Below, in pieces: positions 11,038-33,893 of a stretch of 64,000 nt of DNA. Below the pieces are notes generated by a model that had not been told where the DNA came from, did no database searches, and was given only the letters and a program-made list of their open reading frames with translations. Both the position numbers and the translations under genes were made by a program. Origin of the DNA: Thermococcus thioreducens. GTDB lineage: Archaea > Methanobacteriota_B > Thermococci > Thermococcales > Thermococcaceae. The DNA is taken from positions 558,001 to 622,000 of the forward strand of contig NZ_CP015105.1 of NCBI RefSeq assembly GCF_002214545.1. The letters run 5' to 3'. How positions within the stretch are numbered: position 1 is the stretch's first letter; each line of letters starts with the position of its first letter.

Positions 11038-14000
11038 ATGAATCGGAAGGCCTTGAGTCTTTTGATTGTGGCGGTGCTCGTACTATCGGCAGCTTCAGTA
11101 GCGTTTTCAGCAACACCTGTCTTTGCCGCCCCCTCTAACCCTGCCAAAGTAGAAACCACAAACAATGCTCATCCTGAGCAGTTCATCAGCGGTGAGATTC
11201 TCCAAAAGGAAATACAGAATATCCTGAAGACCAGTGACAAAACCGTACGACTGATAGTCGCACCGGATAGAGACCACAAGATGGAGGTATATAATGCCCT
11301 TAAAAAGCTTGGAAAGATCGATCCAATAAGCAAACCCGAGTATCAGTTCATAGTCGTGGAGATGCCCGTTTCCAGGGTGGAGGAGCTCCAGAACATTCCT
11401 GGTATCCTGCATGTGTGGAAGGACAGGACTGTCAAGCTCCAGGAACCTGTGGCTCCCGAGGATGGGACTGCTCCCAGCGCTCCTGCAAGGGACTCCCTCT
11501 CCCTCCCAGAAATGTTCATGAGCGTTTTCACCATAGACGCGTACAACGTCTGGACTGACTACGGTGTCTACGGAGACAACGTTACAGTTGCCGTTCTTGA
11601 TACGGGTGTGGATGTGGGACACCCGTTCCTCCAGACGACCCTCGATGGAAGGAAGAAGATTATTGACATCTATGACGCGAGCGACGAGGGTATGGCCCAG
11701 ATATACTACAACACTACCACTCCCGTCGGAGGAACTATCACCGTCAACAAGAACGTCACTGTCTTCTGGGGAGTCTACGCTAACTATTACGGTCACCCTG
11801 CATACACCAACTACACCATGGGCACCTATTATGTCGGCAACATAACTGGCGATACATACTACATCGGCCTCCTTCCCGAGAGGTACTTCGACCTCAACAA
11901 CTTCAGCGCGACCCCCTACGACCCGTACGGCCTTGGCCTCTTTGGAGACCTCAGTGATGTTTATCCGGTTCTCATAGTCAACCAGAGCGGTAACTTCACC
12001 GCTTACATAGACTTCAACCTCGACAACAACTTCACCAACGACCAGCCGATGAGAATTTATGACATCAGCGGGGACTACGTCACCGTTAACACAACTAAGG
12101 TCAACGTTGCCTTCATAGAGTTCGAGCCCAGTGAGGGCTACGCCTACTTCATGTGGGACGCCCACGGACACGGCACCCACGTCAGCGGTACCGTTGCGGG
12201 CGTTGGTCTGCCCACTGACCCTGTGTTTTACGGCGTCTACGGCGTTGCTCCCAACGCCCAGCTCATCGAGGTTAAAGTTCTTCCGGGAGAGCTCGGCTTT
12301 GGAAGAACCAGCTGGATAATCAGCGGGATGATATACGCGACCCTTATGGGTGCCGACGTCATCAGCATGTCCCTCGGCGGTGGTGGCGAGATAAACGACG
12401 GACTTGAGACCCCGGAGATATTTTACGTCAACCTGCTCACCGACATTTACGGGGTTACGTTTGCCATTGCCGCTGGAAACGAGGGGCCGACAACCAACAG
12501 CGTTCACGCCCCCGGTGACAGCGACCTGGCCATAACGGTCGGCAACTACTGGGAGAGCGAGAGGTGGGAGCTTCTCTACGGCCTGCCGGGGGTTATGAAC
12601 GGTCCGGCCATGAGTTCCAGCAGGGGACCGAGGATGGACGGTCTCCTCGACCCGGACGTGATGGCCCCTGGAACTGCCATATTCTCAAGCCTTCCGATGT
12701 GGTACACGGTTCTCTACGGAAACCCGTACAGGTACTACGGATTCTGGAGCGGCACATCAATGGCCACCCCGCACGTCAGCGGTGCAGTTGCCCTCATGAT
12801 AAGCTATGCCAAGCAGCACAACATCACCTACAACCCGATAATGATCAAGCGCGCCCTTGAGCTCAGCGCCAAGCCCACGAACCAGACCATGATAGACCAG
12901 GGCTTTGGCCTCATACAGGTCGACAAGGCCATAGCCAAACTCGAAGAGCTCAGCCAGGAACCGACCAATTACCTCTTCGCGGGCACGACCTTCACCAGCT
13001 TCAAGAACCCGATTGAGCAGCCAGTAATACCAACTGCGACGTTGAGCTCAATATATTCTTGGGGAGTGGGCTACTTCCAGTACATGTTCGGCTATCCGTA
13101 CCTCTACAGAGGAGTCTACATAAGGGACGAGTATCCGGGCAGCGTCCCGATATACTTCTCGCCGATGACGTACGAGCCCGGATGGGGCCTCTGGTACGTC
13201 TTCGAGAACAAGACCTACAAGATAAGCACCAACGTTGACTGGATCATGCCGAACACTACCGAGGTCACCATACACGGCGCTAATGCCATGTACATAAGCG
13301 ACCTCATCGGACAGTTCTCCATCAACATCGACTACTCCAAGCTCCAGAAGAGCGGCACCTACGTGGGTCTGATTTACATCGACGACCCGGACACCAGCTA
13401 CATCGATGGTTATGTCGCAGTGACCGTTGACATACCCGCAAACAAGAACGGCGGGACCAGCGCCAAGATCACCGACACCGGCAAACCGGGTGAGGCCAAG
13501 CACTACTTCTTCGAGGTGCCGAGGGGCACAAAGGAACTCCGCGTTACCCTCCGCGTCCCGACGGATGCCAACGGCACCCCAATGGGCAGGGTCAAGCTCG
13601 TCATCGCGAGGCCAATGGGCGGTGTTGTCTACGACGGAGTGCCCGGATACTACTACGTCGGCCCAGGAGGACCGCTTGAGTACACGTGGGTGGTAGAGAA
13701 TCCGGTTGAGGGCGTCTGGGAGATAACGGCCTACGTCAGCGTCAGCTCCTACGCCAGGACCGGCTACGAGGATGCCCACTATGAGATCGAAGTGAGCGCT
13801 GCGTCCGTTTCAATAACACCTGAGATCATCAAGAAAGACGTCCCGTCTCCGGCAAACGTCAGCGTTGGGGCCAAGGTGGAGAACAACTACGGCGACTTCA
13901 ACGCCGTTGCTGTTGGATACGGCCTTGGAAGGCTTGACCAAGCATATGCAATGGTCAGGAACGTCAGCCAGGACGACTGGGATGTCATCGGGGCTTTCTA

Positions 14001-15312
14001 TGTTGACCCAACCACATACTTCATCAGGTTTGGAATTACCGAGCCCGAAGACCCAACTGCTGACCTTGACCTGTATGTGCTGTACTTCCCAACGCTGAAT
14101 GACCTCCTCAACTTCGCGAACTATACGGTCTACTACGACCAGATAGGCCCGACCAGCGATGAGGTCTTCGAAAAGTTCATGCCCGAGACGGGATACTACC
14201 TGATAATGGTCTACGGATACGACACAAGGAGCTACAACCCGATCCACTACACCTTCTACTACCAGGTGCTCGGCGACAACGGTGATGTGGCGGTCGACAG
14301 CACCCCGTTTGCATTTGGCACGGGTACCTCAGAATCCATCGGCGCTAAAGTGGACCTTTCGGCTCCAGGCACTTACCTCGGAGTGCTCGGACTCCTCAAC
14401 GCAGACACTGGGGAGACTATGACCTACGCGCCGATGCTGTTCCAGGTAGGCATGCCCGAGATGTACGTGGTAGTGTATCCGGAAGCCACCCTCGGAAAGC
14501 AGTCAGTGCTCAAGATAAGGCTCCTCGACCTTGCGACGATGGAGAGGATAAACACTCCGGCAAAGGTCGTCGTGAACGGCAGGGAGTACTACACGGACAA
14601 CGGTGAAGTCGAGGTGTACTTCACACCCCTCCACATGGAGCAGACGTTCAACATTCAGGTCTTCAGCGACTACTACCAGGACACCTCCAAGGAGGTGACG
14701 GTTAAGGTCAAGGAGCTTGCGGAGAACAAGGTTTACTCCGCCACCCAGGTATCACCCTACGTCGCGGTTGGACTCGGTACAGTCACGGGCTACCACGACA
14801 CGGGTACGAGCATAGACCTGACGGTTGAGGGTCCGAGCGGAACGACCGGTTACGTCCTCGTAACACTGCCGGTCGATACCCAGTACGTCGACGTTAAGGG
14901 CGACCATGTGATCAGCTACTACATCCTTGACGGTAAGAACGCGAAGTACGCCGTGCTGAAGGTCAAGTACGCCTCACCGGTAACTCTGACGATTGAATAC
15001 AAGACCTCCCGCTGGATCGTCAGCACCTGGAACTACGTCTGGTACATGCTCTACTGGAGGTACGACCAGAAGTTCGACCCGCTCTACCAGAAGGCGGTTG
15101 AGCTCGGCGTCGACAATGAGACCCTCCAGGAGGCCATGCACTACAAGCAGCTCGCCGACCAGTACTATGCTGAGGCCGAGAAGTACCTGACTCCGGGCAG
15201 GGACAACCTCGCAATAGCTGCACTGCCCAACATCCGCAAGGCCTACCTGAACATCCTCAAAGCATACACCATCCTTGAGAAGGCCGTCAAGGAGATTGAA
15301 GCCCAGGGCTGA
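11038..15312 (+). CDS. Pyrolysin/stetterlysin-type secreted subtilisin protease
   Basis: A 1424-residue S8A serine endopeptidase. A signal peptide (about 1-30, ending ATPVFAA) precedes an inhibitor-like propeptide (to about 150). The catalytic triad is Asp188 (AVLDTGVDVG), His378 (HGHGTHVSG) and Ser574 (SGTSMATPH), with oxyanion Asn481 (AAGNEGPT). A long insert lies between Asp and His, as in P. furiosus pyrolysin. The C-terminal 800 residues are beta-rich with many N-glycosylation sequons and end in a charged helical segment (about 1355-1424). It should act outside or attached to the cell, digesting proteins for peptide fermentation. There is no obvious membrane anchor. It is monocistronic with its own promoter. 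Confidence 0.96.
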   Translation: MNRKALSLLIVAVLVLSAASVAFSATPVFAAPSNPAKVETTNNAHPEQFISGEILQKEIQNILKTSDKTVRLIVAPDRDHKMEVYNALKKLGKIDPISKPEYQFIVVEMPVSRVEELQNIPGILHVWKDRTVKLQEPVAPEDGTAPSAPARDSLSLPEMFMSVFTIDAYNVWTDYGVYGDNVTVAVLDTGVDVGHPFLQTTLDGRKKIIDIYDASDEGMAQIYYNTTTPVGGTITVNKNVTVFWGVYANYYGHPAYTNYTMGTYYVGNITGDTYYIGLLPERYFDLNNFSATPYDPYGLGLFGDLSDVYPVLIVNQSGNFTAYIDFNLDNNFTNDQPMRIYDISGDYVTVNTTKVNVAFIEFEPSEGYAYFMWDAHGHGTHVSGTVAGVGLPTDPVFYGVYGVAPNAQLIEVKVLPGELGFGRTSWIISGMIYATLMGADVISMSLGGGGEINDGLETPEIFYVNLLTDIYGVTFAIAAGNEGPTTNSVHAPGDSDLAITVGNYWESERWELLYGLPGVMNGPAMSSSRGPRMDGLLDPDVMAPGTAIFSSLPMWYTVLYGNPYRYYGFWSGTSMATPHVSGAVALMISYAKQHNITYNPIMIKRALELSAKPTNQTMIDQGFGLIQVDKAIAKLEELSQEPTNYLFAGTTFTSFKNPIEQPVIPTATLSSIYSWGVGYFQYMFGYPYLYRGVYIRDEYPGSVPIYFSPMTYEPGWGLWYVFENKTYKISTNVDWIMPNTTEVTIHGANAMYISDLIGQFSINIDYSKLQKSGTYVGLIYIDDPDTSYIDGYVAVTVDIPANKNGGTSAKITDTGKPGEAKHYFFEVPRGTKELRVTLRVPTDANGTPMGRVKLVIARPMGGVVYDGVPGYYYVGPGGPLEYTWVVENPVEGVWEITAYVSVSSYARTGYEDAHYEIEVSAASVSITPEIIKKDVPSPANVSVGAKVENNYGDFNAVAVGYGLGRLDQAYAMVRNVSQDDWDVIGAFYVDPTTYFIRFGITEPEDPTADLDLYVLYFPTLNDLLNFANYTVYYDQIGPTSDEVFEKFMPETGYYLIMVYGYDTRSYNPIHYTFYYQVLGDNGDVAVDSTPFAFGTGTSESIGAKVDLSAPGTYLGVLGLLNADTGETMTYAPMLFQVGMPEMYVVVYPEATLGKQSVLKIRLLDLATMERINTPAKVVVNGREYYTDNGEVEVYFTPLHMEQTFNIQVFSDYYQDTSKEVTVKVKELAENKVYSATQVSPYVAVGLGTVTGYHDTGTSIDLTVEGPSGTTGYVLVTLPVDTQYVDVKGDHVISYYILDGKNAKYAVLKVKYASPVTLTIEYKTSRWIVSTWNYVWYMLYWRYDQKFDPLYQKAVELGVDNETLQEAMHYKQLADQYYAEAEKYLTPGRDNLAIAALPNIRKAYLNILKAYTILEKAVKEIEAQG

Positions 15313-16898: not shown

Positions 16899-16913
16899 CC
16901 CGTTTCTGCACAT

Positions 16914-16940
16914 CAACCTTTTTAACCTTTGGTTTTGAAC
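16914..16940 (+). promoter_or_regulatory. nsr promoter with perfect SurR site in a repressing position
   Basis: CAACCTTTTTAACC (16914-16926) is the TATA region. Immediately after it AAC-CTTTG-GTT-TTG-AAC (16924-16940) is, read on the other strand, a perfect copy of the extended SurR motif GTT-N3-AAC-N5-GTT. It lies between TATA and the expected start, where SurR binding would block transcription. SurR of P. furiosus is known to repress NSR when sulfur is absent, which fits. Confidence 0.85.
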
Positions 16941-16958
16941 CCTTCTCGGTGATGGAGA

Positions 16959-28978: not shown

Positions 28979-29027
28979 TCCTCTCACCGGTTCCTTCTTG
29001 GTAATCTGGGCCTTTATAGGTTTCTAA

Positions 29028-29070
29028 AACCAAAAGTTGAAAACGGGAGGGGAGTTTTTAACCTTTGGTG
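29028..29070 (-). promoter_or_regulatory. SurR double site upstream of the hypF TATA box
   Basis: Read on the minus strand, GTT-TTC-AAC-TTTTG-GTT (29028-29044 on the plus strand) is a perfect extended SurR motif. Nine bases further upstream lies a second GTT-N3-AAC core (29054-29062), followed on the plus strand by CTTTG-GTG, one base off the full motif. The two form a 15 bp imperfect inverted repeat (29030-29044 and 29054-29068). The hypF TATA box (29011-29020) is just downstream, so the sites are in an activating position. Confidence 0.82.
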
Positions 29071-30174
29071 TTAGAATAAAGCCCCGTACTTGTAGAAAAT
29101 GCTGCAGGTTCCTTCGTAAGAGACCATACATGGTCCTATTGGACTCCTCGGCGTGCATGTCTTGCCGAAGTGCGGGCACTGCGGGGGCAGAGCCAGACCG
29201 CGAAGTATCGCACCGCAGATGCAGCCCTTTTCGAGGTCGGGCAGCTTTGGGACCTCCGGGTCGTAGTACGTCCTTATCTCCAGGTCTTTCCACTCCTTCC
29301 TCAGCTCAAGGCCGCTCTTGGGCATGACGCCGAGTGCGCGCCACCTGGCGTCTTTAACCTCGAAGAACTTGTCTATGAGCTTTTGAGCGACAACATTGCC
29401 CTCGTATTTAACGACTCGCGTGTACTCGTTTAGTATCTTGACCTCACCGTTCTTGACCATCCTGACTAGGAGGAGTATTGCCAGCAGCATGTCAACCGGC
29501 TCGAAGCCGGCTATGACCTGAGGTATGCCGTAGTCGGTCGTTATGTACTCCCAGCCCCTTACGCCGATTATCGTGGAGACGTGGCCGGGGTCGATGAGGC
29601 CGTGGAATCTTGTCCCCTGCTTTACAAGCACCTCAACGGCCGGGGGAGTCAGGCGGTGGACGGAGTATATTTTGAAGTTTTCCAGCCCTTCCTCGGCAAC
29701 GGCGTTGAGCATTCCCGCGGCCGGGGCTGTGGTCGTCTCGAAGCCCGGTGAGAAGTGCACGACCGTCCTGTCGGGGTTTTCCTTGGCTATTTTGTATGCA
29801 TCGAAGATCGAATAGACGACCCTGACATCGTAGCCCTCGCTCCTTAAGTCAGCGAAGCTACCCCTCGGGGTCGGGATCTTATACATGTCCCCAAAGGTGG
29901 TGAGGATTATCCTGTCCCCCTCGGCGTAGGCCTGCCTCATTATCTCCTGCATCTTCACTATGTCCTCGACAGGGGTTATACAGACGGGACAGCCCGGGCC
30001 GCTGACTATCTTGATGTTGTCCGGCAAGAGGGAGCGGATTCCGGAGCGGGTCACCGTGTCTTCGTGGGTCCCGCAGACGTGCATGAAGCGGAGCTCGTCG
30101 AGGCCCTTTGCCTCTTCGTGTATCTGCCTGACTATCCTCTGGGCGAGCTCCCTGTCCTTGAACTTCTCCAGCAT
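29071..30174 (-). CDS. hypD: Hydrogenase maturation protein HypD
   Basis: 367 residues from ATG 30174, which follows GGGAGGG and begins 1 base after the hypC stop. HypD holds an Fe-S cluster and a redox-active Cys pair and carries the Fe(CN)2CO unit with HypC. Visible motifs are FMHVCGTHEDTVTRSGIRSLLP, VSGPGCPVCITP, FSPGFETTTAPAAG and the cluster-binding C-terminal region with GCICGAILRGLALPPQCPHFGKTCTPRSPIGPCMVS (Cys spacing as in T. kodakarensis HypD). It forms the hypC-hypD operon behind a SurR-type promoter. Confidence 0.96.
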   Translation of the reverse strand: MLEKFKDRELAQRIVRQIHEEAKGLDELRFMHVCGTHEDTVTRSGIRSLLPDNIKIVSGPGCPVCITPVEDIVKMQEIMRQAYAEGDRIILTTFGDMYKIPTPRGSFADLRSEGYDVRVVYSIFDAYKIAKENPDRTVVHFSPGFETTTAPAAGMLNAVAEEGLENFKIYSVHRLTPPAVEVLVKQGTRFHGLIDPGHVSTIIGVRGWEYITTDYGIPQVIAGFEPVDMLLAILLLVRMVKNGEVKILNEYTRVVKYEGNVVAQKLIDKFFEVKDARWRALGVMPKSGLELRKEWKDLEIRTYYDPEVPKLPDLEKGCICGAILRGLALPPQCPHFGKTCTPRSPIGPCMVSYEGTCSIFYKYGALF

Positions 30175-30175
30175 C

Positions 30176-30421
30176 TTAGTTCCCTCCCGGGAGCTCCTCA
30201 CCCCTGGTTATCCTAAAGACCTCGTCCCACGCTTCGAGTATCTCCCTCGCCCTTTCCTCGTCCAGCTTTTCTATCGCGAATCCCGTGTGCACTATGACGT
30301 AATCGCCAACTTCAACGTCAGGGAGCAGGTCAAGGCGTGCTTCTCTCTTAACGCCGCCGAAATCGACTATCGCGACGTTTCCCTTTATTTCAAGTACCTT
30401 CGCCGGAACAGCCAAGCACAT
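30176..30421 (-). CDS. hypC: Hydrogenase maturation chaperone HypC
   Basis: 81 residues with the family start MCLAVPAKVLEI; Cys2 binds the Fe(CN)2CO precursor and the hydrogenase large subunit. The OB-fold core runs through IVDFGGVKREARLDLLPDVEVGDYVIVHTGFAI. It is the first gene of hypC-hypD; the promoter is GGCCTAAAAAAGCACC (about 30450-30464) on the minus strand, with a SurR motif directly upstream. It diverges from mobA across 103 bp. Confidence 0.96.
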   Translation of the reverse strand: MCLAVPAKVLEIKGNVAIVDFGGVKREARLDLLPDVEVGDYVIVHTGFAIEKLDEERAREILEAWDEVFRITRGEELPGGN

Positions 30422-30471
30422 TTTGTGTCACCCATTGATAATTCAGCCGGTGCTTTTTTAGGCCTTTCCGG

Positions 30472-30488
30472 AACCATAGGTTTTCAAC
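30472..30488 (-). promoter_or_regulatory. Perfect SurR site between hypC and mobA
   Basis: On the minus strand GTT-GAA-AAC-CTATG-GTT is an exact extended SurR motif. It lies about 8 bp upstream of the hypC TATA region (GGCCTAAAAAAGC) and just upstream of the mobA TATA-like element CCCTAAAAGTC on the plus strand. This is an activating arrangement for hypC-hypD and possibly also for mobA. Confidence 0.85.
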
Positions 30489-30524
30489 CGTCAACCCTAA
30501 AAGTCTGGAATCCGACCATGTATC

Positions 30525-31106
30525 ATGCTGGGCATCCTTCTGGCTGGGGGCAAAAGCCGGCGTTTTGAAAGAGATAAACTACTTTTCAGAGTAGATGGAA
30601 AGCCGCTCATCCAGTATGCCTTTGAAAGGCTTGAATCCGCTTCGCTTATAGATAAGATCGTTGTAGTGGCCTCCCCCGAAAACGCCCGTGCGCTGGAGGA
30701 GCTGGGCTACCGGGTGGTGGTTGACAGGATGCTCCTGGGCCCGATAAGCGGCGTCTACACGGCGCTGGGGCTGGGAGATGCCTTTATAGTCGCCGGCGAC
30801 ATGCCCCTAATAGTTCCCGAATTCGTTGATTACATAATCGCCCGGTTCGAGAGGAGCGGGGGAAGAGTATGCGTCCCGAGGTGGGAAAACGGCTACCTTG
30901 AACCGCTCCATGCGGTATATCCTGCTGAATTCAGATCAGTGCTCGAACAAAGGATTGGGAACGGCGACTACGCCCTGAACAGGGCCATCCGGTCTACGGA
31001 CGCCTGCTACATCGGCCTTGAGTCCGTTCCGGAGGAGTGGCTTCTCGGCCTCTTCAACGTCAACAGGAAGGAAGACCTGAAAAAGCTCAGCCGTACTCTC
31101 TTTTGA
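30525..31106 (+). CDS. mobA: Molybdenum/tungsten cofactor guanylyltransferase MobA
   Basis: 193 residues of the nucleotidyltransferase fold. ILLAGGKSRRFERDKLLF is the GTP-binding signature, with GPISGVYTAL and IVAGDMPLIVP (metal-binding Asp) following. It attaches GMP to molybdopterin; in Thermococcales the product would serve tungsten or molybdenum enzymes such as formate dehydrogenases. There is no RBS before the ATG and the TATA is about 25 bp upstream, so the mRNA is likely leaderless. It is the only plus-strand gene inside the hyp cluster. Confidence 0.9.
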   Translation: MLGILLAGGKSRRFERDKLLFRVDGKPLIQYAFERLESASLIDKIVVVASPENARALEELGYRVVVDRMLLGPISGVYTALGLGDAFIVAGDMPLIVPEFVDYIIARFERSGGRVCVPRWENGYLEPLHAVYPAEFRSVLEQRIGNGDYALNRAIRSTDACYIGLESVPEEWLLGLFNVNRKEDLKKLSRTLF

Positions 31107-31127
31107 GGTATTAACCACCTTTTTAGT

Positions 31128-31217
31128 CTAGCTGCGGTTTTCTCCCGCCTTCAGGTCAAGGAGGAACGAGGGGATGGAGAAGGCGCTGGCCACCAGCAGG
31201 AGCGCCCTCAGCCCCAT
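31128..31217 (-). CDS. 29-residue putative membrane peptide after hycI
   Basis: A short frame beginning ATG 31217, four bases after the hycI stop (TGA-TCCA-ATG), and ending TAG at 31128. The product starts MGLRALLLVASAFSIPSFLL and ends DLKAGENRS: a single hydrophobic stretch with a charged tail, that is, a one-pass membrane peptide or leader. There is no separate RBS, so translation would rely on coupling to hycI. It converges with mobA 21 bp away. No family is recognised; conservation in other Thermococcus genomes would decide whether it is real. Confidence 0.5.
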   Translation of the reverse strand: MGLRALLLVASAFSIPSFLLDLKAGENRS

Positions 31218-31221
31218 TGGA

Positions 31222-31695
31222 TCACATCCCGTTGAGGAGCTCTGCCAGAGACCCCGCCAGGGCCTCCGCCTTTTCAATGATTACCTCGCTCGGCGCCTGG
31301 AAAAGGCCCAGAACCTTTGGCTGACAGCCTATGAGGAGGAACTTCGCGTTGGTTCTGGACTTCAGGTATCCCACGAGCACCCTCAGCGGCAGGCTGTGCG
31401 TTGAGACGGCATCCCCCAGCGTCCCCTCCGGGTCGGCTATAACGAGCTCCCCGTGCTCACCGCCGAAGTCAACGGCATCCACAAAGACCACGAGGTCGGG
31501 TTTGAACTCAACTATCTTTCCGGTGTAGCTTTCCGGAACCTCTCCGCAGTTCAGGATGAGAACGTTCGGATTTTTTACGAGCTCTTTCAGCCTCTCTGCG
31601 ACGATTACTCCGAAGGCATCGTCGCCCCTAACGTCGTTCCCTATGCCGCAGATTACCACCCTTTCGGCGTTTTTTAGGAGGTCGGAGAGTTCCAT
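31222..31695 (-). CDS. hycI: Hydrogenase maturation endopeptidase HycI
   Basis: 157 residues of the M52 peptidase family, which clips the C-terminus of the [NiFe] hydrogenase large subunit after nickel insertion. CGIGNDVRGDDAFGV near the start supplies the first nickel-sensing acidic residue, FVDAVDFGG the second, and VSTHSLPL the His. It follows the Mrp-type HypB gene by 56 bp in the same direction, and a putative 29-residue peptide follows it. Confidence 0.93.
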   Translation of the reverse strand: MELSDLLKNAERVVICGIGNDVRGDDAFGVIVAERLKELVKNPNVLILNCGEVPESYTGKIVEFKPDLVVFVDAVDFGGEHGELVIADPEGTLGDAVSTHSLPLRVLVGYLKSRTNAKFLLIGCQPKVLGLFQAPSEVIIEKAEALAGSLAELLNGM

Positions 31696-31751
31696 CTCAA
31701 CACCCCGCCACGCAGAATTTTGAATTTAATAAAAGAAAAATCTCGGTCGGC

Positions 31752-32483
31752 TCAGATCTTCTGGGCAATCTCCCTTATCCTGTCCGCGAACTCCGTCCTC
31801 AGCAGCCCGTCCGGCTTTCCTATCTTCCCTTCCAAGTCTCTGTACAGCGGTATGCCGGTCAGATATGGCACGTCAAACCTCTTAGCCAGCTCCTCTATGT
31901 CCTTCTCCTCGTCCAGCTTGAGGTTCTCGATGATTCCGAGGATTCTGTGTTCCCTCTCCCTGAGAAGGGTCAGAAGCTTTTCAACGACGTTGATTGACAG
32001 CTTCGACGGCGTTGCAACGACGAGGAACTCGCCCCTCTTGAGGAACCTCAGCACGTCGAGGAACTGGTCGCCGAGGCCGGGGGGCATGTCTATGATGAGG
32101 TAGTCCAGCTCGTCCCAGCGCGTTATGGCGAGGAGCTCGATGAGGGCATCGCTTATCTCCATGCCCCTCATGGGTGTGGGTTTGTCCTCGGAGTAGTAGA
32201 CGATGCTCATGAACTTTATTCCGTGAACCGTCGGCGGGATTACACCGTACTCCTCCTCGGGGAACTCCTTTGGCTCGAAGCCGAGAATCACGTGGTCGCT
32301 CGCGCCGTGGAAGTCGAGGTCAAGCAGTCCAACCTTGTAACCCTTCTCCGCCAGAACGAGGGCCAGTGTGGTGGAGACAAGGGACTTTCCTACACCGCCC
32401 TTCCCGCTGACGACGGGGATTATGCGCTTCACCTTCTCAAGCCTGCCCTCTATGCCCTTGACGCGCGGGTCTATGCTTATCAT
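31752..32483 (-). CDS. hypB: Mrp/MinD-type ATPase serving as archaeal HypB
   Basis: 243 residues of the SIMIBI class. The deviant Walker A SGKGGVGKS is at 26-34, the switch LLDLDFHGASDHVILG follows, and Walker B is LIIDMPPGLGD. It is not the GTPase HypB of bacteria; Thermococcales use this Mrp-family ATPase, which binds HypA and loads nickel onto it. It overlaps hypA by 4 bp, which fits that role. The upstream CxxC of other Mrp proteins is not seen. Confidence 0.9.
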   Translation of the reverse strand: MISIDPRVKGIEGRLEKVKRIIPVVSGKGGVGKSLVSTTLALVLAEKGYKVGLLDLDFHGASDHVILGFEPKEFPEEEYGVIPPTVHGIKFMSIVYYSEDKPTPMRGMEISDALIELLAITRWDELDYLIIDMPPGLGDQFLDVLRFLKRGEFLVVATPSKLSINVVEKLLTLLREREHRILGIIENLKLDEEKDIEELAKRFDVPYLTGIPLYRDLEGKIGKPDGLLRTEFADRIREIAQKI

Positions 32484-32899
32484 GCCTCTCCCTCCTTCTC
32501 GATCTTTATGCCGCTTATGTAGACTCCCCTCCCCTGGAGAACCTCAAAGTCCCTGCTCCCGCACTTCGGACAGGCTAGAAACGCGTGTACTACCTCGGGG
32601 ATGAAGTGTATGTCCTCCTTTATGCGCTCATCGAAGCTTTCTTTGACCTCCTTCAGCTTCCACTCGTGACCGCAGTCACGGCACTTAAAAAGGGCTTCCT
32701 CCTCGACGAACTCTATCTCCGCTCCCTCTCCTATCGTCCCCTTTAGGAGCTCCTTCATTGCGAACTCGACTATCTCTGCGTTCACATCTTGGAGCTCTCC
32801 GAGGACGACCCTTACTGCGAGGAGCTTTGTTGCCCCTTCCTTCTGGGCGTAATCGAGGGCGGTTCTAACTATACCATCTGCCAGTGCCCACTCGTGCAT
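32480..32899 (-). CDS. hypA: Hydrogenase nickel insertion protein HypA
   Basis: 139 residues from ATG 32899; the true start is fixed by His2 in MHEWALAD, a required nickel ligand, and GGAGGG precedes it. Structural zinc Cys are 73, 76, 110 and 113 (CRDC and CPKC) with the extended loop typical of Thermococcus HypA. It delivers nickel to the hydrogenase large subunit with its ATPase partner encoded just downstream. The TATA region (CATTTTTAAGAGCG, about 32930-32943 on the minus strand) is preceded by a SurR site. Confidence 0.96.
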   Translation of the reverse strand: MHEWALADGIVRTALDYAQKEGATKLLAVRVVLGELQDVNAEIVEFAMKELLKGTIGEGAEIEFVEEEALFKCRDCGHEWKLKEVKESFDERIKEDIHFIPEVVHAFLACPKCGSRDFEVLQGRGVYISGIKIEKEGEA

Positions 32900-32948
32900 T
32901 TTCAATCCCTCCTCTAGGTTTTAGGGTCACGCTCTTAAAAATGAACTG

Positions 32949-32965
32949 GTTTCAAACCTCGGGTT
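32949..32965 (-). promoter_or_regulatory. Perfect SurR site upstream of hypA
   Basis: On the plus strand GTT-TCA-AAC-CTCGG-GTT is an exact extended SurR motif; the GTT-N3-AAC core is itself symmetric. It lies about 8 bp upstream of the hypA TATA region on the minus strand, in an activating position. It overlaps the last codons of the membrane protein gene that ends at 32952, so the site is embedded in coding sequence. Confidence 0.82.
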
Positions 32966-33893
32966 CACTGGCTCTCATTCTCTTCAGCCTCCACCCAAGA
33001 AAGGCGAAGGTACCAACGCCCAGGAGGGCCTCACCCCTCATGCCGTTGAGTTCGAGGATTATGTCGTAGGGCACGAACCAGAATGCCAGAAAGCCCAGGG
33101 CTAGGGCATACTTTCTCCTCTCGTCCAGATGGGAAGGTGTGGAGTAGAAGTGGAGGGTTACCATAAGTCCGAGGACAGAGGGCACAACGGGGTGTACTGA
33201 GGAGTGGGGGAAGGCTGTGAAGATAAAGAACAACGCGAAGGAGACAGTGAAGCCATAGACGAAGGGATGTCTCCTTGGAATGCCGCGCTTGAAGAGAGTC
33301 TTCATTTTTACCTTCCTTGCGAGGATCAGCAGGAGCACCGTGAGGATTATCGTGAGGATGTACTGAAGTGCCGGCACCCTGTAGGAGCCCAGGACTGCGA
33401 AGAACACTGCACCTGACAGCAGAAACGACGCTGATGTAAGCAGGATTCCCCGCTTTCCGAGAAGACTCTCGTTCCGGAACTCCTGATGGAGGGCATCTAC
33501 CACCATTATCGGGATGGCTATGCTCATCAGGGAGTGGAATATCGTCAGCCACACCGCCCAGGCGGCGTTGACCCCCCAGGCTCTTCCATAGATACCCAAG
33601 ATACCTAAATCCGGCCACTCCGGGTTGAACCAGGACTTTAAAACGAGCCCCTCCTCGATGATTCCGTAGGCAAAGCCGAGGAGCATGAGCCTCAGGTAGT
33701 TCCTCCCCCACCGGATCCAGGCCTCCCGGACGAGGAGAACGCCAGCACCGTAGTAGGCCCACAGGAGGGGAAATGAGAGGGGATTGGTAAGGGCCTCCAG
33801 GGGTGGGGTGGAGCCGCTCAGCACCTCCGCGAATAACGGGGATAGAAATGAAAGGAGAACGGCGGTTTTGGTTTTCCGTTCCATGGGAACCAT
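32952..33893 (-). CDS. Polytopic membrane protein of unknown function
   Basis: 313 residues with about nine hydrophobic segments. A conserved-looking GFAYGIIEEGLVLKSWFNPEW in the first third recalls the EE pair of CPBP-type intramembrane proteases, but the other CPBP motifs are not clear, so this remains a hint. No RBS is visible at ATG 33893 and a second ATG lies three codons in. It follows the TPR gene by 21 bp and probably shares its transcript. Confidence 0.7.
   Translation of the reverse strand: MVPMERKTKTAVLLSFLSPLFAEVLSGSTPPLEALTNPLSFPLLWAYYGAGVLLVREAWIRWGRNYLRLMLLGFAYGIIEEGLVLKSWFNPEWPDLGILGIYGRAWGVNAAWAVWLTIFHSLMSIAIPIMVVDALHQEFRNESLLGKRGILLTSASFLLSGAVFFAVLGSYRVPALQYILTIILTVLLLILARKVKMKTLFKRGIPRRHPFVYGFTVSFALFFIFTAFPHSSVHPVVPSVLGLMVTLHFYSTPSHLDERRKYALALGFLAFWFVPYDIILELNGMRGEALLGVGTFAFLGWRLKRMRASEPEV

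Follow-up and report, generated by a model that had tools for sequence, protein, structure and literature searches.

A predicted SurR operator at the core promoter of the CoA-dependent sulfur reductase gene nsr in Thermococcus thioreducens

The closest described counterparts of the locus analysed here are nsr (PF1186) and the nsr operators of other Thermococcales, which share with it the regulator family, the gene and the motif. According to the available passages of PMC12162507, the regulator SurR recognizes a defined motif under the control of a CxxC, and in its reduced state represses Nsr, Mbs and Pdo. The same passages describe SurR sites upstream of the TATA box as activating and sites downstream of it as repressing, and they cite Hidese 2017 for a requirement of two sites, one upstream and one downstream, at some repressed promoters. 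Excerpts of other studies report a short SurR motif before the Nsr gene of T. piezophilus (PMC8595942), an increase of NSR protein on sulfur in T. onnurineus (PMC4463584) and a 2.4-fold rise of nsr mRNA on sulfur in Palaeococcus (PMC6981617). In T. aciditolerans (deep-sea strain), SurR-linked genes that depart from the standard rule are described in the part of PMC12401011 at hand.

An exact motif search of a 64,000-nt stretch of T. thioreducens DNA (the window) matched GTTNNNAACNNNNNGTT on the minus strand in the promoter of a sulfur-metabolism gene, the CoA-disulfide reductase/NSR gene nsr. The promoter region reads CATCAACCTTTTTAACCTTTGGTTTTGAACCCTTCTCGGTGATGGAGAATG on the plus strand, and its features are collected in Table 1. 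All nine fixed bases of the long form GTTn3AACn5GTT are matched, and the site is identical, letter for letter, to the SurR motif as printed in the passages of PMC12162507. The motif starts with the last two bases of the TTTTTAA box and extends downstream, leaving a gap of 18 bp to the nsr start. With TTTTTAA as the putative TATA box, this is the repressing type of layout, at or downstream of TATA. The T. piezophilus site differs in being the short form with a gap of 17 bp, as far as the excerpt of PMC8595942 goes. The SurR-repressed mbs promoter of T. kodakarensis, from the partial text of PMC12401011, likewise has a motif that overlaps the BRE/TATA region. However, two sites are said to be needed at some repressed promoters (Hidese 2017 via the PMC12162507 passages), whereas a single SurR site is present within 100 bp upstream of nsr, and no second site was seen there. 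Based on the TATA position and a median of 23 bp between TATA box and transcription start in T. kodakarensis (excerpt of PMC4247193), nsr transcription should start near 16942-16948.

Table 1. Features of the nsr promoter and further exact SurR motifs in the window (window coordinates)
Feature	Position	Strand	Remarks
BRE-like stretch ahead of TATA box	16911..16918	+	predicted from sequence; columns partly conserved
TATA-like box TTTTTAA	16919..16925	+	from sequence; putative TATA role
SurR-binding motif, long form (GTT-N3-AAC-N5-GTT)	16924..16940	-	GTTCAAAACCAAAGGTT minus strand, AACCTTTGGTTTTGAAC plus strand; exact match; predicted site
Extended three-part operator AACC-N3-GGTT-N3-AACC	16924..16941	.	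12/12 bases match; column counts in 61 distinct promoters
Ribosome binding site GGTGAT	16948..16953	+	from sequence; good site; fits GGDGRD of T. kodakarensis (PMC4247193, excerpt)
nsr, CoA-disulfide reductase / CoA-dependent NAD(P)H sulfur reductase, 441 aa	16959..18284	+	TIGR03385; PDB 4fx9
Second SurR motif	29028..29044	-	40 bp before hypF (minus strand), upstream of CCTATAAAG box; exact match
Third SurR motif	30472..30488	-	between divergent hypC (minus) and mobA-like gene (plus); exact match
Fourth SurR motif	32949..32965	+	43 bp before hypA (minus strand), upstream of TTTTTAAG box; exact match

A sequence-only reading of the window had placed a SurR motif at this promoter, within 16914-16940 and between the TATA box and the gene start. 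The exact match confirms the motif, which does lie inside that range and before nsr. However, the range also takes in BRE/TATA bases ahead of the motif proper, and the two-base overlap with TTTTTAA means that the motif is not strictly between the box and the gene. The 12 fixed bases counted in that reading have to be rejected for the motif as it was written, which has nine (GTT, AAC, GTT); by coincidence, the extended array AACC-N3-GGTT-N3-AACC does have 12 fixed bases, all of which match. The window as a whole contains four exact matches to the long motif versus 0.22 expected, and none of 100 shuffles reached four.

The nsr product scored 601.4 bits against TIGR03385 (curated cut-off 578.8); no other of the 14 matches in its own genome passes this cut-off. 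Among solved structures it is closest to those of coenzyme A disulfide reductases, namely PDB 4fx9 (E value 1.9e-246), 3kd9 and 5l1n. The score over the curated CoA-disulfide reductase cut-off upholds the earlier assignment of the gene as a CoA-dependent sulfur reductase, and the product is predicted to be an elemental-sulfur reductase using NAD(P)H and CoA. The paralogues next best to TIGR03385 (362.4 and 244.4 bits, below the cut-off) have no long motif nearby in the genome motif list.

A SurR orthologue, on whose presence the sequence-only reading had made its claim depend, is encoded at genome position 681631-682350 on the minus strand. The 240-aa protein scored 404.7 bits against NF047699 (curated cut-off 250) and matches PF22315, the C-terminal PF0095-like domain. 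Its closest solved structure is P. furiosus PF0095 (2qlz, E 1.8e-92), to which the CxxC near its N-terminus, CTEC, can be aligned. The surR gene is divergent from pdo, encoding a protein disulfide oxidoreductase (TIGR02187), and a long SurR motif is located between the two genes.

It is highly probable that the site is the SurR operator of nsr, with repression by reduced SurR that is lifted by sulfur. Binding, redox release and repression at nsr would be expected by analogy with the literature on relatives. When elemental sulfur is lacking, reduced SurR, its CxxC in the form of free thiols, would bind the nsr site, cover the end of the TATA box, reach towards the putative transcription start and thereby keep the transcription machinery off the promoter. 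On the arrival of sulfur, the CxxC would be oxidised and SurR would be released, allowing nsr to be transcribed. The motif and the repression of NSR, for which the sequence-only reading referred to work on P. furiosus, agree with the passages of PMC12162507. Since other Thermococcales are already known to control nsr through SurR in this way, with sulfur relieving the repression, this is an ordinary case, which adds a further genome to the SurR regulon. It also confirms that reading a window blind can correctly identify the operator of an established redox switch. A regulator other than SurR might conceivably read the array at nsr, considering that SurR binding there is a prediction and that, among the ArsR-type regulators encoded in the genome, the analysis covered SurR. 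We assign this a very small probability: the array motif is the published SurR motif in the text of PMC12162507 available, and the same motif precedes surR/pdo, hydrogenase and hyp genes, which are the published kind of SurR target.

To evaluate the conservation of the site, 94 genomes were searched, comprising 61 from a genus draw and 33 more from a family draw. Upstream regions of nsr were obtained from 89 of them, leaving out two matches without the N-terminus and three incomplete genomes without a match at E 1e-180. The long motif is present within 100 bp upstream of nsr in 76 of the 89 relatives, which further supports the motif claimed at this promoter; one region has only the short GTTn3AAC and 12 have neither form within that distance. 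The register is that of the window in 74 of the 89, the motif starting at -34 (41), -35 (26) or -36 (7), and in G018 and G066 the long motif is found only in a register that takes in the TATA box itself. There are 61 distinct promoter sequences among the 74, with the nine motif bases invariant by construction of the set. The T run and the AA of the TTTTTAA box are nearly invariant in these 61, and spacer bases 5 and 6 vary. Among 34 homologous loci outside Thermococci for which an upstream region was available, the long motif is absent from the 100 bp before the gene in every case and the short one is present in two, compared to 16 of 23 Thermococci loci with the long motif in the same homologue search. 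The conservation of site and position in the family and the absence outside Thermococci support a function of the nsr site.

These comparisons bear on whether the motif could have arisen by chance in an archaeal promoter rich in A/T, assembled from TTTTTAAC with GTT and AAC words. Across 61 genomes matches to GTTn3AACn5GTT outnumber those to its backward control only 2.2-fold (1925 versus 867), so that single matches elsewhere are often due to chance, and 14 of the 42 matches in the own genome lie inside genes by hand assignment. At nsr, however, the motif recurs at the same place with its spacer bases varying, and its probability in 100 bp of one promoter is 0.0022 under a first-order Markov model trained on nsr upstream regions. 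A chance match was rejected on the basis of the 76 conserved sites and the 34 homologues outside Thermococci that lack the long motif, and we regard its probability as negligible. It was also observed that NSR-like proteins of about 56-63% identity (L170-L177, L186) occur in Archaeoglobi and Desulfobulbaceae assemblies without a SurR operator, which suggests a transfer of the gene alone.

Beyond the nine motif bases, the 61 distinct promoters have C at position 4 in 58, G at position 8 in 56 and C at position 18 in 55 cases. The full array AACC-N3-GGTT-N3-AACC is found in 61 of the 89 nsr upstream regions, with a probability of 3.5e-5 in 100 bp under the same type of first-order Markov model of nsr upstream regions. 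The conserved nsr operator is a regular 12-base array, and its spacing matters genome-wide. In the whole genome of T. thioreducens (2,065,932 bases, one contig), there are 42 matches to the long motif versus 9 to the backward control. With C and G added (GTTn3AACCn3GGTT), the 61 genomes contain 513 matches versus 49, and with the third half-site moved by one base, 142 versus 202 (N4) and 38 versus 93 (N2). For the window's own genus, which accounts for 28 of the 61 genomes, the counts for motif and control are 1086/222 (long motif), 325/9 (C..G form), 97/34 (N4) and 24/16 (N2). In the own genome the C..G form is seen in 12 of 28 motifs outside genes and in none of 14 inside genes. These labels were assigned by hand from ORF calls; among the 28, the motif at 838440 overlaps the end of an upstream ORF, and two others, at 894836 and 1701173, fall within short ORFs taken as spurious.

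From these observations we tentatively raise a possibility that we consider rather doubtful. In place of a motif with a free 5-base spacer, the true SurR operator might consist of three half-sites of 4 bases that alternate with strict spacing, GGTT-N3-AACC-N3-GGTT, in 7-bp steps. With an equal 3-base gap in both arms, SurR would recognize the third half-site as belonging to a single regular lattice, perhaps via its second winged helix or a second dimer, and at nsr this lattice would be embedded in the end of the TATA box. Several lineages would have broken the array and kept SurR, and should then express nsr without sulfur control. The C..G spacer pattern is not mentioned in the passages of the SurR literature covered; the primary SurR consensus papers lie outside these, and novelty is not claimed. 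The extended consensus could sharpen SurR site prediction, because the loose published motif is only about twice as frequent as its control across the family.

The long nsr site is absent in 13 of the 89 relatives (G043, G053, G048, G037, G047, G030, G044, G039, G034, G003, G074, G077 and G062), a set with many draft assemblies. SurR is present in 12 of these 13, the exception being G053 (75% complete), which gave no match. Altogether, SurR was found in 21 of 22 genomes searched, with the CxxC kept in 21 of 21, and a long motif is present within 160 bp before surR in 17 of the 21, that is, in 9 of 9 genomes with the nsr site and 8 of 12 without it. On the NSR protein tree, the nsr-site trait needs eight changes, at least five of which are forced by well supported branches; G034 is on a long branch, and its placement is unsure. 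The site was apparently lost by a point change, a spacing change or a deletion. That 12 of the 13 siteless genomes keep SurR implies that SurR control of nsr is dispensable, and these genomes provide a cheap natural test of its importance. They also lend some weight to another alternative, that SurR binds but nsr expression in this species is mainly set by something else, with little effect of the site; the weak coupling of mbs and mbh to sulfur in T. aciditolerans, from the excerpt of PMC12401011, points the same way. On the other hand, most relatives have kept the site, and a protein bound there should interfere because the site overlaps the TATA box. The probability of this alternative is small.

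The other three motifs of the window (Table 1) lie in a hydrogenase maturation cluster at 28987-33000 that contains hypF, hypC, hypA and a mobA-like gene. SurR-activated hydrogenase/hyp promoters have the same motif as nsr but, unlike nsr, the site is upstream of a TATA-like box. At two such promoters in the window, those of hypF and hypA, the TATA-like box (assigned by eye) is on the gene side of the motif. In the literature this arrangement, the reverse of that at nsr, is associated with activation. By layout, the window shows both faces of the SurR switch, with nsr in the repressed and the hyp genes in the activated arrangement. Other long motifs in the genome precede hydrogenases, hyp genes, Mrp-type antiporter subunits, thioredoxin reductase and an Nfn-like subunit, and these target genes match the published kind of SurR regulon.

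An extended SurR motif is also located 45 bp before the ORF of 4-phosphopantoate--beta-alanine ligase, an enzyme of CoA biosynthesis (L088, G000:C1:1795215-1795231); the sulfur reductase of this genome is CoA-dependent. The TATA-plus-site layout was found in 5 of 30 anchored ligase loci (G000, G026, G059, G003 and G023; own genome included), and in six others of the 30 the only long motif lies at a greater distance upstream; another 20 stretches were dropped since the gene start could not be anchored. With the layout in 5 of 30 only, a SurR site before this ligase is unsupported as a family-wide rule. Further extended motifs precede an amino acid racemase family gene (L084, G000:C1:1230415), an iron-type alcohol dehydrogenase (L085, 1388689), a 231-aa protein without a family match (L079, 838440) and a 466-aa protein whose sole match, to soxA, is weak (L087, 1747008), all of which are possible further members of the regulon. 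Elsewhere in the window, an ORF of 1424 aa at 11038-15312 was assigned by eye to a secreted subtilisin-like protease.
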